From the NCBI GenBank assembly GCA_009692205.1, contig SHZR01000005.1, forward strand, positions 1 through 64,000: a stretch of DNA of 64,000 nt, given 5' to 3'. The position numbers were made by a program, and so were the translations under genes. Positions 420-4,308 of the stretch are shown piece after piece. A model generated the notes under the pieces. The model was not told the origin of the DNA and made no database searches. It worked only from the letters and a program-made list of their open reading frames with translations. Every line of letters begins with the position of its first letter. Positions within the stretch are counted from its first letter, which is position 1. Source of the DNA: Gemmatimonadota bacterium. Its GTDB lineage: Bacteria; Gemmatimonadota; Gemmatimonadetes; Longimicrobiales; Gaopeijiaceae.

Positions 420-752
420 TCAGCCGGTAAGTCGAACTTTGACTCGGGCGTGTTCACGAGTTCGCGACCGTCTCTTGACGACGATCTCGACGTCGCGGTC
501 CAGAGCAGTAAGGAAGCGAACGAGGCGCTCTAGGGAGAAGCCGCTGATCTGGCCCCTAAGGAGGTTGGATACTACGGGCTGTGTGGCACCGAGCAGCCGC
601 GCCGCCTGGGCCTGAGTAAGGTTGCGACCCTTGATGATCTCACCGATACGTCGCATGAGCTGCGCCTTGCTCAACAATTCCTCGGCATCGGGTAGCCCCA
701 AGTCTGCGAACACATTCCCGCTTCCTTCCTCAACCAGGTGCTCCCTGCTCAT
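420..752 (-). CDS. higA: HigA-type antitoxin, Xre family
   Basis: This 110-residue protein has a helix-turn-helix of the Xre/Cro type at about residues 31-85: 'NLTQAQAARLLGATQPVVSNLL' is cut here to its core TQAQAARLLG and PVVSNLLRG. A basic tail follows (RRSRTREHARVKV). It is the second gene of a pair: its ATG shares four bases (ATGA) with the stop of the HigB-like toxin gene upstream. The toxin-first order and the GP49-like partner are typical of HigBA. The expected role is to bind and neutralise HigB and to repress the operon. It ends four bases before attC site A, as expected of a cassette gene. Confidence 0.85.
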   Translation of the reverse strand: MSREHLVEEGSGNVFADLGLPDAEELLSKAQLMRRIGEIIKGRNLTQAQAARLLGATQPVVSNLLRGQISGFSLERLVRFLTALDRDVEIVVKRRSRTREHARVKVRLTG

Positions 753-1123
753 GGGGTACCTCCGTGCGTCTGATAGTGAGCTTCGGCGGACTTGTATCGC
801 GCCCGAATTAGGTCAATCTCGTGCTGCGGCGTCTTCGCGCCGCGCCTGGACTTCTTCTGAAACGCGTGCAGCACGTAGATCGCGTCGCGAAACCGTATCG
901 TGTACACCAATCGAAACGCGTTACCGTCGTGCCTCTCCACGATTTCCAGGATACCCGATCCCGTCACAATGCCCTTGAGTGACTTTGTCTGGGGTGCCTG
1001 CTCGCCCAACTGGGCCAGCCAGAGACCGTAGCCTACGTCAGCCTGGACCTCCTCCGGGAAGCTCTTGAGATCGGCCCGCGACGAGGCGACCCAGCGGACG
1101 GGTGTCGACTGATCGTGCGTCAT
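749..1123 (-). CDS. higB: HigB/RelE-superfamily toxin (Gp49-like)
   Basis: This 124-residue protein has the phage Gp49/HigB layout. An early 'WVASSRADLKSFPEEV' helix is followed by 'KSLKGIVTGSGILEIVE', then 'FRLVYTIRFRDAIYVLHAF' with a conserved Arg and the basic FQKKSR end that is typical of ribosome-dependent RNases. The family is known to cleave mRNA on the ribosome; that role is inferred here. A longer in-frame extension begins at 1174, but the start at 1123 was chosen because a good -10 (TATACT) lies seven bases before this ATG. It overlaps higA by four bases and is carried on an integron cassette. Confidence 0.82.
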   Translation of the reverse strand: MTHDQSTPVRWVASSRADLKSFPEEVQADVGYGLWLAQLGEQAPQTKSLKGIVTGSGILEIVERHDGNAFRLVYTIRFRDAIYVLHAFQKKSRRGAKTPQHEIDLIRARYKSAEAHYQTHGGTP

Positions 1124-1130
1124 GCCCCAG

Positions 1131-1159
1131 AGTATACAAGATCCCGTATACGAAGACAA
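1131..1159 (-). promoter_or_regulatory. Promoter of higBA with repeated GTATAC operator, leaderless start
   Basis: The minus strand has TTGTCT (1159-1154), a 17-base spacer and TATACT (1136-1131), a good sigma-70-type match. The higB ATG starts seven bases after the -10, so the transcript should begin at or beside the start codon. Two GTATAC palindromes (1151-1146 and 1137-1132) sit 14 bases apart over the spacer and -10, a fitting place for HigA autorepression. Confidence 0.65.
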
Positions 1160-1200: not shown

Positions 1201-1377
1201 ATCTAACGGTTCGGAATTCTGCTGCCGGGCCCGGTCGGTAAGCAACCTATGACGCCGCGCCCACCCACCGCTCGTGTCTACCCGCACGGAAGGCCCGAAC
1301 GGGCCGCTGTCCACCTCGCTGAGCGATCGGAGACATGTCGAGCAGCTTACCCGGACAGCAGCAATTCTTTGTTATAC
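1201..1377 (-). other. attC-like site B, between the two cassettes
   Basis: Minus-strand cores are GTATAAC (1377-1371) and GTTAGAT (1207-1201), the second a full GTTRRRY match. The arms are long imperfect complements: plus-strand GAATTCTGCTGCC with GGTCGGTAAGC on the left, GCTTACCCGGAC with AGCAGCAATTC on the right. The middle holds a further variable stem. The stop codon TAA of the upstream antitoxin-like gene lies inside the GTATAAC core. The fold and cores fit attC, and the direction of the better core fits an array running on the minus strand. Confidence 0.7.
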
Positions 1378-1890
1378 AGCAGCCTTCGCTCGAGCGCCAC
1401 GCCGCCGCCGGGTGGCGCTCCCCGACCGGTGCTTCGGCAGCACAACCACGTCCACTTCTCGACCAAGCAGGTGAAGCAGCGCGATCAGCTGGCCGACGGA
1501 CTTGGTTCGATTTGCTGGATCCAGGAGGCGATAGAACTGGCTCGCCGAGGTGCCGAGGGTGCGTATGAGCTCCCGCTTACTGATGTAAGAGGCCTTCACC
1601 GCCTTCTGTGCCTCTACCGTCAAGCGGTGCAGCAGCAGGTCGTTTAGGTAAGCGGGATCTCGATTGTACTCGAGCACCGCGTCGGCATGAATGGTGTCCT
1701 CCCGTCCATCCGTGAGGCGATACGTGAAGCCCTCACCGCCGAGTTCATCGTCCGGATACGCCTCCTCAACCCGATTGTCTGCGCCGGGCTGCAAGCTAAG
1801 AAGGGCGTACGGGAAGGTGTAGGCCGCAGAGGTTGTCTCGATCTCAAAAGCCCTCTTCCGATTGTTCGCCGTCACCGTCTTGATTTTCAT
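1372..1890 (-). CDS. Xre-like putative antitoxin, partner of the DUF4160 protein
   Basis: This 172-residue protein has two parts. Residues 1-90 form an unassigned beta-rich domain that begins MKIKTVTANNRKRAFEIET. Residues about 95-150 look like a helix-turn-helix: SKRELIRTLGTSASQFYRLL, then KSVGQLIALLHLLGREVDVV. A basic Arg/Ala tail ends the protein. It follows the DUF4160 gene with an ATGA overlap. Context (cassette, overlap, DNA-binding C-terminus) suggests an antitoxin and autoregulator. No family name is certain for the N-terminal domain. The stop codon lies inside attC site B. Confidence 0.7.
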   Translation of the reverse strand: MKIKTVTANNRKRAFEIETTSAAYTFPYALLSLQPGADNRVEEAYPDDELGGEGFTYRLTDGREDTIHADAVLEYNRDPAYLNDLLLHRLTVEAQKAVKASYISKRELIRTLGTSASQFYRLLDPANRTKSVGQLIALLHLLGREVDVVVLPKHRSGSATRRRRGARAKAAV

Positions 1891-2081
1891 AGCAGCCCCC
1901 CCTCGCGAAGCTCAGCGATGAGCCGCAGGATCCGGCGAGTGGCCGCGCCCTTCATGGCCACGTCGTTCTCGAGATCCCACTTCACTACGAGGCTACCGTC
2001 GCGATAGACGTGCACATGGTAAGGACTGTGGTCTCCCTTCCACGTGACGAAGACGAAGCCGCCTCGCCGAAACTTGCCCAC
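1887..2081 (-). CDS. DUF4160-like small protein (putative toxin)
   Basis: This 64-residue protein carries the DUF4160 hallmark HVHVYRDG within a beta-rich fold, followed by VVKWDLEND and a C-terminal helix. DUF4160 genes often sit beside antitoxin-like genes (DUF2442, Xre), so a toxin role is inferred; the biochemical activity is not known. The start is GTG at 2081; no in-frame ATG fits. There is no ribosome binding site, but a promoter ends six bases before the GTG, so translation is probably leaderless. The gene overlaps the Xre-like gene by four bases. Confidence 0.75.
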   Translation of the reverse strand: MGKFRRGGFVFVTWKGDHSPYHVHVYRDGSLVVKWDLENDVAMKGAATRRILRLIAELREGGLL

Positions 2082-2087
2082 CGCGTA

Positions 2088-2117
2088 ATGTTACCACATA
2101 CGGTAACGCTAAGGCAA
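2088..2117 (-). promoter_or_regulatory. Promoter and palindromic operator of the DUF4160 cassette
   Basis: The minus strand has TTGCCT (2117-2112), an 18-base spacer and TAACAT (2093-2088); the GTG start follows after six bases. A perfect inverted repeat GTTACC-N6-GGTAAC (2090-2107) covers the -10 and part of the spacer. The layout matches the higBA cassette: weak sigma-70-type promoter, symmetric motif on top of it, leaderless gene. Confidence 0.55.
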
Positions 2118-2142
2118 GTACCGTCCGTACGCTGCGGCTGCT

Positions 2143-2260
2143 GTCTAACGACTGGGGTTGTGCTGCACGAGCAACATGGTCGCACCGCGTGGTGAGGTGC
2201 AAGCCGAACCGCGCGGGCCCATGAGTCGACCGAAGTGTCAGCACCAACCGGTTGTTAGCG
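2143..2260 (-). other. attC-like site C (proximal site)
   Basis: Minus-strand cores are CGCTAAC (2260-2254) and GTTAGAC (2149-2143), the second a perfect GTTRRRY. The arms pair well: CTAACAACCGG with TGGTGCTGACAC on one side, CTAACGACTGGGG with TTGTGCTGCAC (plus strand) on the other. The stretch between this site and the intI fragment (2261-2503) is G+C-rich, and no gene or attI motif was recognised in it. Confidence 0.65.
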
Positions 2261-2503
2261 CAGCGACGAAGCGGACGCCCGGCGTCGCGGCTCGCAGCGA
2301 GGATCCCAGCGGGCACCCCTTGGATCGCGAGATGAAGGACCCGGCGGCCGTAGGAGTCAGACCCCGGCGGCGCCCCGCCGAACGAGAAGGAAGAGCGACG
2401 AGCGACGTGCGGAAGCGAGCCGCTCTTCGGGAGCTGGAGGGATAGCGAGGGCTCGAGGGAAGCGGGGGGCGGAGTGAAAGGGGAGCCCGGGGAAGCGGAC
2501 GCG

Positions 2504-2728
2504 AGTGGATACGCTGACGGATCTTTCGTTCGCGAGGTGGGACAGGAAAGCCGCCGCTTCGTCCGTCCCCATCGCGGCGGGGTGGCGCATGCCGTGGTGC
2601 CGCACAGACCGCCGGATCCACGCGACGTACGCCTCTTCGGTGCGCGGGCTGAAGTGTCTGCTTCTGGCGCACCGTCGGACCTGCTCGAGCAGCTTGGGCC
2701 CCCGGCGGGCCGTCCGGTCATCGGTCAT
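2504..2728 (-). pseudogene. intI: Integron integrase IntI, N-terminal fragment
   Basis: The first 75 residues match the N-terminal core-binding (SAM-like) domain of integron integrases: LLEQVRRCARSRHFSPRTEE, then AYVAWIRRSVRHHGMRHP and AAAFLSHLANERSVSVST. After ST the frame stays open to 2357, but the residues are Arg/Pro-rich and no longer integrase-like. The catalytic domain with the Arg, His and Tyr residues is absent, and the 240 bases before attC site C are too few to hold it. A deletion has therefore removed about three quarters of the gene. It lies on the same strand as the cassettes. Confidence 0.8.
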
Positions 2729-3735: not shown

Positions 3736-4308
3736 CTAGGATTCGCGCCTTTCAGCCGGGAGGCGCAGGAGGATGCTCAGGATGATCGACCGACATGCAG
3801 TGAAAGCGGTGGTAGGGGCGGGCCGGACGACGACGATGGGATCTTGCTGGGTGAACTGCCCCGCGGCGGGATCGTAGTAGCGGTTGCGTTTGTAGGCGAG
3901 CCCGGTCGCGTCGGTCATGTCGAACGTGAGGGAGCCGTACCAGGTGTGGAGGTTCCGAGGGTCGGGATCTCCCATCCTGGAGTTCCAGCTCACGCCCGGC
4001 CAGGGCACGCCGGAACCGACTCTCGCACCGGCGTCGTTCGTGGCGTCGACGACGAGCCCCCGCCAGTTCCGGTGCAAGACCACGAGGCTGTTGTTCAGGA
4101 TCACCGCGACCGGCCGGTCGAGTGCGCCGACGTGCACGTAGCCGGCAACGCCGGTCTGATCGCCCCCGCTCGGCACCGCTGTATCACCCGCATCGGCCTG
4201 CCTCGTCTCCCACAGGATCTGGTCGCCGTCCCACACGTACCGCTCGATCGAGCTGTAGCAGCGGCTCGAGTGCGTACAGACCGGCGTCTCCTGGCGGCTC
4301 CGCTTCAT
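3736..4308 (-). pseudogene. Rhs protein, C-terminal fragment (after in-frame stop)
   Basis: This is the third piece of the broken rhs gene. Upstream of the ATG, 12 further codons in the same frame (EEYWYDALGRRV) run back to the TAA that ends the middle piece, so a single nonsense codon separates them. The fragment has a Trp/Tyr-rich Rhs stretch (YVWDGDQILWETRQ) and the Rhs-associated core signature LAYKRNRYYDPAAGQFTQQD. The core normally continues with GLxGGxNxYxY and a variable toxin tip. Here it passes directly into about 35 unrelated residues, so the 3' end has been lost. IS-like repeats begin 20 bases downstream. Confidence 0.75.

Follow-up and report, generated by a model that had tools for sequence, protein, structure and literature searches.

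The window analysed here, 64 kb of a Gemmatimonadota genome, carries close to one end two consecutive gene cassettes and a truncated integron integrase, all on the minus strand. The cassette that concerns us holds a toxin gene, higB, and an antitoxin gene, higA, whose products are 124 and 110 residues long respectively, and the stop codon of higB and the start codon of higA overlap as ATGA. The features of the region are as follows, in the coordinates of the window.

301-415 (outer edge uncertain), minus strand: attC-like site after higA (half-repeat D1; 82% similar copies elsewhere in the genome and genus)
307-1206 (left edge approximate), minus strand: HigBA integron cassette (arms 409-421 and 1195-1207, 13 nt, 100% complementary; homologous cassette in G395)
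420-752, minus strand: higA antitoxin gene, HTH_37/PF13744, XRE-like (Pfam E 3.7e-30)
749-1123, minus strand: higB toxin gene, Gp49/PF05973, RelE-like HigB group (Pfam E 6e-22 over residues 18-111)
759-763, minus strand: Shine-Dalgarno site GGAGG of higA
1131-1136, minus strand: -10 element TATACT (direct reading and consensus scan; 5/6 match)
1132-1151, unstranded: candidate HigA operator GTATAC-N8-GTATAC, core TATAC-N8-GTATA at 1133-1150 (assigned from genome uniqueness, family dyad, orthologues and HigA covariation)
1154-1159, minus strand: -35 element TTGTCT (direct reading and consensus scan; 4/6 match)
1201-1377, minus strand: attC-like site that precedes higBA (its R and L arms pair when the DNA is folded; half-copies repeated at 376-412)
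1372-2148, minus strand: neighbouring cassette with a DUF4160 gene (2081-1887) and an HTH-like gene (1890-1372), own promoter and dyad
2501-2692, minus strand: integron integrase, truncated to the N-terminal 64 codons of the profile (TIGR02249 E 5.5e-16; NF011946 E 7.7e-21)

Judged by its sequence, the pair is a type II toxin-antitoxin module of the HigBA type (Gp49/HTH_37) in reverse order, that is, with the toxin gene first, an order shared by 79 of 80 loci. The solved chains closest to HigA are 2o38 and 2a6c, which are also the nearest solved folds to its AlphaFold model, and there is a weak match to MtHigA3 (6lty); a search of solved structures by sequence returned no relative of HigB. PADLOC gave weak HTH matches only, and Rfam no match. 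On inspection, the attC-like site comes next after higA, and no open reading frame resembling a (SecB-like) chaperone, the third component of a tripartite TAC module, was found.

The ATG at 1123 is the only plausible start of higB: orthologues begin at the same residue, and the next in-frame start comes only at codon 39, with none within 38 codons. A GTG at 1174 was considered and rejected, as the promoter would then fall inside the gene and the orthologues lend it no support. The minus strand leading up to the ATG reads ...GTTGTCTTCGTATACGGGATCTTGTATACTCTGGGGC-ATG, with 17 nt between the -35 and -10 elements. The original prediction had described this very arrangement, TTGTCT-17-TATACT ending seven bases before the higB ATG, and both direct reading and a consensus promoter scan confirm it; in the scan the higB promoter is one of 3 sites in 4 kb, where 0.5 are expected in shuffled sequence. 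No Shine-Dalgarno site precedes higB (duplex energy -0.9 kcal/mol, versus -10.8 kcal/mol for higA). A -10 element 5-8 nt from the start codon (here 7 nt) combined with the lack of a Shine-Dalgarno site is the layout of a leaderless gene, and we infer that higB transcription starts at A1123 or C1124.

Overlapping this promoter, GTATAC occurs at 1132-1137 and again at 1146-1151, the two centres lying 14 bp apart. The hexamer is found 5 times in the 64-kb window (1.7 expected). The pair GTATAC-N8-GTATAC occurs once without mismatch, where 0.19 occurrences are expected even with 2 mismatches allowed, and the core TATAC-N8-GTATA has a single occurrence in the whole 2.72-Mb genome. The same dyad sequence is present in two orthologues, L115 (GTATACTAGTTCTGGTATAC) and L148 (GTATACCAGTATTGGTATAC). 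Since GTATAC is self-complementary, the pair amounts to one 20-bp inverted repeat, as for a dimer operator, rather than to two independent operators. The earlier claim of two GTATAC palindromes 14 bases apart over the spacer and -10 is thus correct as to position, but not as to number: two separate operators are hard to reconcile with the relatives, in which the arms are mostly not self-complementary and yet the 8-bp spacing is fixed.

How general is this arrangement? We compared the upstream sequences of 79 relatives from many phyla (39-62% identity) and, for counts of the -35 element and of the gap between -10 and start codon, 80 pooled loci that bear the dyad; as the loci are related to each other, p-values are indicative only. 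A TATnn-N8-nnATA dyad with perfect 5-bp arms at spacer 8 is present in 35 of the 79 relatives against 0.15 expected in shuffles, and perfect 5-bp arms at every other spacer are found in 0-2 relatives; with at most one mismatch the family dyad is present in 65/79 (3.6 expected). Its right half forms part of the -10 element, which bears out the earlier placement of the operator on the promoter. A -35 TTG at a 17-nt spacer occurs in 46 of the 80 dyad-bearing loci, and the gap from -10 to start codon, 5-7 nt as a rule in the relatives, is 5-6 nt in 35 of them and 3-9 nt in 48. A Shine-Dalgarno 4-mer precedes higB in 14/79 relatives, compared with 73/79 for higA (paired p 1e-12). Recurrence of the same layout, lacking a Shine-Dalgarno site, across relatives backs the leaderless geometry that had been proposed for higB, and the comparison, with about 100 relatives in all, indicates that a leaderless-type promoter overlapped by its own dyad is the normal design of the family, not an oddity of this Gemmatimonadota genome.

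That leaderless starts are merely a habit of the host was rejected on a survey of 413 kb of the genome with crude gene calls, in which TANNNT lies 5-9 nt upstream of about 4% of first ATGs versus 0.5% of internal ATGs and Shine-Dalgarno sites predominate. Leaderless-type promoters are a minority there, so the leaderless layout belongs to the family, not to the host. The same scarcity counts against our preferred explanation, as does the -35 element with its 4/6 matches.

Leaderlessness is not universal in the family, since the gap exceeds 9 nt in 21 of the 80 loci; 10 of these 21 have a Shine-Dalgarno site, against 3 of the 48 with a gap of 3-9 nt (Fisher p 1.7e-4). Such loci lend some weight to an alternative in which promoter and operator are real but the 5' end lies a few bases further upstream, or most higB mRNA originates at another promoter, whether by read-through out of the adjacent cassette or from a platform promoter, so that higB would be translated from a short-leader or long mRNA. 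Read-through is possible in that the DUF4160 cassette lies upstream on the same strand. Set against this alternative are the missing Shine-Dalgarno site of higB, a 7-nt gap that is what a start at the ATG requires, and a mapped precedent in Synechocystis, where reverse-order toxin genes, including a Gp49 gene, have start points at the start codon (PMC4963859). We consider an upstream start unlikely.

Binding of the dyad by HigA would predict that recognition helix and half-site vary together. A covariation scan of 229 HigA and HigB columns against the two variable half-site bases, on a non-redundant set of 42, ranked HigA residues 60 and 57 as the top two columns (z 12.1 and 11.5), with the best HigB column at z 4.6. 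Lys60 accompanies C at the fifth half-site base in 34/34 loci and Asp60 accompanies G in 35/35, hence 69/69 in total, with T in one of the two halves at 5 of the Lys60 loci. The 69 comprise the first set and loci fetched afterwards from the phylum of the host, and the later loci obey the same rule. Mapped on a HigB tree, both traits show 8 changes each, and a greedy choice of branch-disjoint pairs gives 7, all of them concordant; branch support in this tree is poor, and only 1 pair falls on starred branches. The AlphaFold model (pLDDT 90.8) places residue 60 inside the predicted recognition helix, which spans 58-65, and residue 57 immediately before it. In MtHigA3 the aligned counterparts of residues 57 and 60 are Ser63 and Arg66, whose NMR signals vanish upon DNA titration (PMC7340258).

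The HigA of the window carries Val60 and so stands outside the Lys/Asp rule, and the case for this locus therefore rests on orthologues sharing TQP[VIS]VS[NK]. Those from the same family, genus or order with TQP[IS]VS[NK] have TATAC half-sites at L115, L148 and L124, and in one half at L114. A second HigBA module resides in the same genome (L002 1450-2210; G000 C35:20041-20385 plus flank); it has a leaderless-type promoter of its own, and its dyad, AATAGCAGTACTGCTATT, differs from the GTATAC one. Its HigA has QP-Asp and its half-sites are AATAG, matching the prediction of the rule, and by this reasoning the two modules should not cross-regulate.

The comparisons strongly support HigA as the ligand of the dyad, and the locus has what is expected of an autorepressed operon, an inverted repeat on the promoter specific to the cognate antitoxin (the dyad on the -10 element, together with the HigA covariation). 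XRE-family proteins commonly use such operators, and in principle the dyad could serve some other XRE protein, from host or phage, while HigA acts at a different site. This is very improbable given that changes in the half-site go with changes in the recognition helix of the HigA encoded next to it, that the top HigB column is far weaker, and that the C35 module pairs its own HigA with the half-site expected. It is scarcely credible that the GTATAC pair is no more than a fortuitous AT-rich stretch within an ordinary promoter and not the operator of HigA: AT-rich palindromes are common in promoters and TATACT is simply a good -10 element, but the exact spacing of 8 family-wide, the uniqueness in the genome, the conservation in orthologues and the covariation with HigA contact residues all argue against it.

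Complementary arms delimit the two consecutive cassettes with their attC-like sites, 13-nt arms bounding higBA and 14-nt arms (1371-1384 and 2136-2149) bounding its neighbour, so that both have the complementary R arms at either end that characterise integron cassettes. The attC fold energies are no better than those of shuffles, and it is thus the complementary arms that carry the attC claim. A functional integrase in cis, as a complete integron would have, was not found in the window, where only 64 N-terminal IntI codons are present, and the array is probably fixed at its present site. A cassette itself needs no integrase in cis. In the congener G395 a homologous higBA cassette is flanked by attC-like sites of a different type, and in G303, from another genus of the family, higBA directly follows the integrase gene, with integrase, higBA and attC on one strand. 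At the present locus promoter and operator fall within the 83 nt between cassette edge and ATG, and so travel with the cassette. The unit had been predicted to be self-contained, which agrees with a promoter inside the cassette and homologous cassettes in other arrays.

As the attC arms are symmetrical, we considered whether the cassette genes might run against the array; extra bases on one arm and the gene order in G303 favour genes running forward. The attC-like sites at 1201-1377 and 2143-2259 do have extra unpaired bases on the genes-forward arm, but these are the complements of the usual G and T, and the polarity is provisional for that reason. The integrase remnant (2501-2692) lies on the cassette strand, the order being the same in G303 (C74), and would probably be read in the direction of the array, opposite to the arrangement in class 1 integrons.

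The layout of the higBA cassette recurs in its DUF4160 neighbour, an unrelated cassette whose own promoter (about 2081-2115) consists of TTGCCT-18-TAACAT about 6 nt from a GTG start, with a dyad on its -10 element, GTTACC-N6-GGTAAC, that is unrelated to the GTATAC dyad. This layout is kept in relatives across the family of the host, the start being GTG or ATG in most; the G395 copy has the codon ACG at the start position.

We therefore return to the reading that we prefer, to which we assign a probability of about 0.82: an integron-borne HigBA cassette in which higB would have a self-promoted, leaderless start and HigA would repress its own operon through the dyad. The original interpretation is, on these sequence data, supported. 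The cassette would bring its own sigma-70-type promoter, from which RNA polymerase would initiate on the A of the higB ATG or on the base beside it, yielding a leaderless mRNA with HigB initiated from its 5'-terminal AUG. HigA, with its strong Shine-Dalgarno site and a start overlapping the higB stop, would be made in excess, and a HigA dimer, alone or with HigB, would bind the 20-bp dyad across spacer and -10 and block RNA polymerase; upon loss of HigA the promoter would open. With all parts inside about 83 nt from cassette edge to ATG, the unit should function at any insertion site, in whichever host.

Each element has published examples: leaderless Gp49 toxin transcripts, binding of HigA at a -10 box, and integron toxin-antitoxin cassettes with promoters of their own. 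The M. tuberculosis HigBA3 system (Rv3182-Rv3183) is also toxin-first, and its HigA dimer binds the -10 box, at a palindrome, TATAACCTAGAGGTTATACT, that shares the TATnn-N8-nnATA spacing and the TATACT -10 element, although in EMSA only the half duplex DNA2 was shifted (PMC7340258). It differs in that its HigA is distantly similar (phmmer E 0.004) and in not being described as an integron cassette. Synechocystis ssl7039-ssl7038 likewise has a Gp49 toxin first, a mapped start at the start codon, and a dyad, TTGTATC-N6-GATACAAT, on a -10 element 6 nt from the ATG; unlike the present module it has an antitoxin of PF21716, a toxin that BLASTP does not align and a dyad spacing of 6. In A. baumannii higBA2, again with a Gp49 toxin first, the antitoxin represses the operon promoter and the toxin strengthens repression (PMC5906591), but no leaderless start is reported there. 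N-terminal sequencing has proved a regulator gene of another toxin-antitoxin locus to be leaderless (PMC8630535). In Vibrio chromosomal integrons, too, toxin-antitoxin cassettes carry their own promoters (PMC11023631); host and integron differ there, and the present analysis adds the geometry of operator and start. Tn3-family transposons carry modules of the same toxin and antitoxin families, also toxin-first and on mobile elements, for which the existence of an own promoter was left open (PMC7157771). The promoter identified here by comparison bears on that question.

The most useful result is the set of family-wide regularities. Mobile toxin-antitoxin modules must function in unrelated hosts, and a promoter, operator and start codon within about 40 bp, together with the Shine-Dalgarno asymmetry, suggest how they may do so. 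Given the residue-to-half-site rule, simple reporters could test directly both operator specificity and cross-talk among HigBA modules that share a genome. We lean, if only slightly, towards a general control code for Gp49/HTH_37 modules, in which HigA residues 57 and 60 would dictate the half-site, thereby keeping modules in one genome insulated from each other, and the pairing of a leaderless toxin start with a Shine-Dalgarno antitoxin start would tilt translation towards the antitoxin in any host. No report of the rule or of the Shine-Dalgarno asymmetry was found in a literature search that mostly left subscription papers outside its reach, which is weak evidence of novelty.

Two further observations concern other loci. 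Positions 1-149 of the window are the end of a repeated element seen at several contig ends of the genome, probably an insertion sequence at which the assembly broke off. At L098 (about 3890-3935), a TACTAC-N8-GTAGTA dyad lies just upstream of a GTG gene start, with TANNNT 7 nt before the GTG; this is possibly another self-regulated gene.
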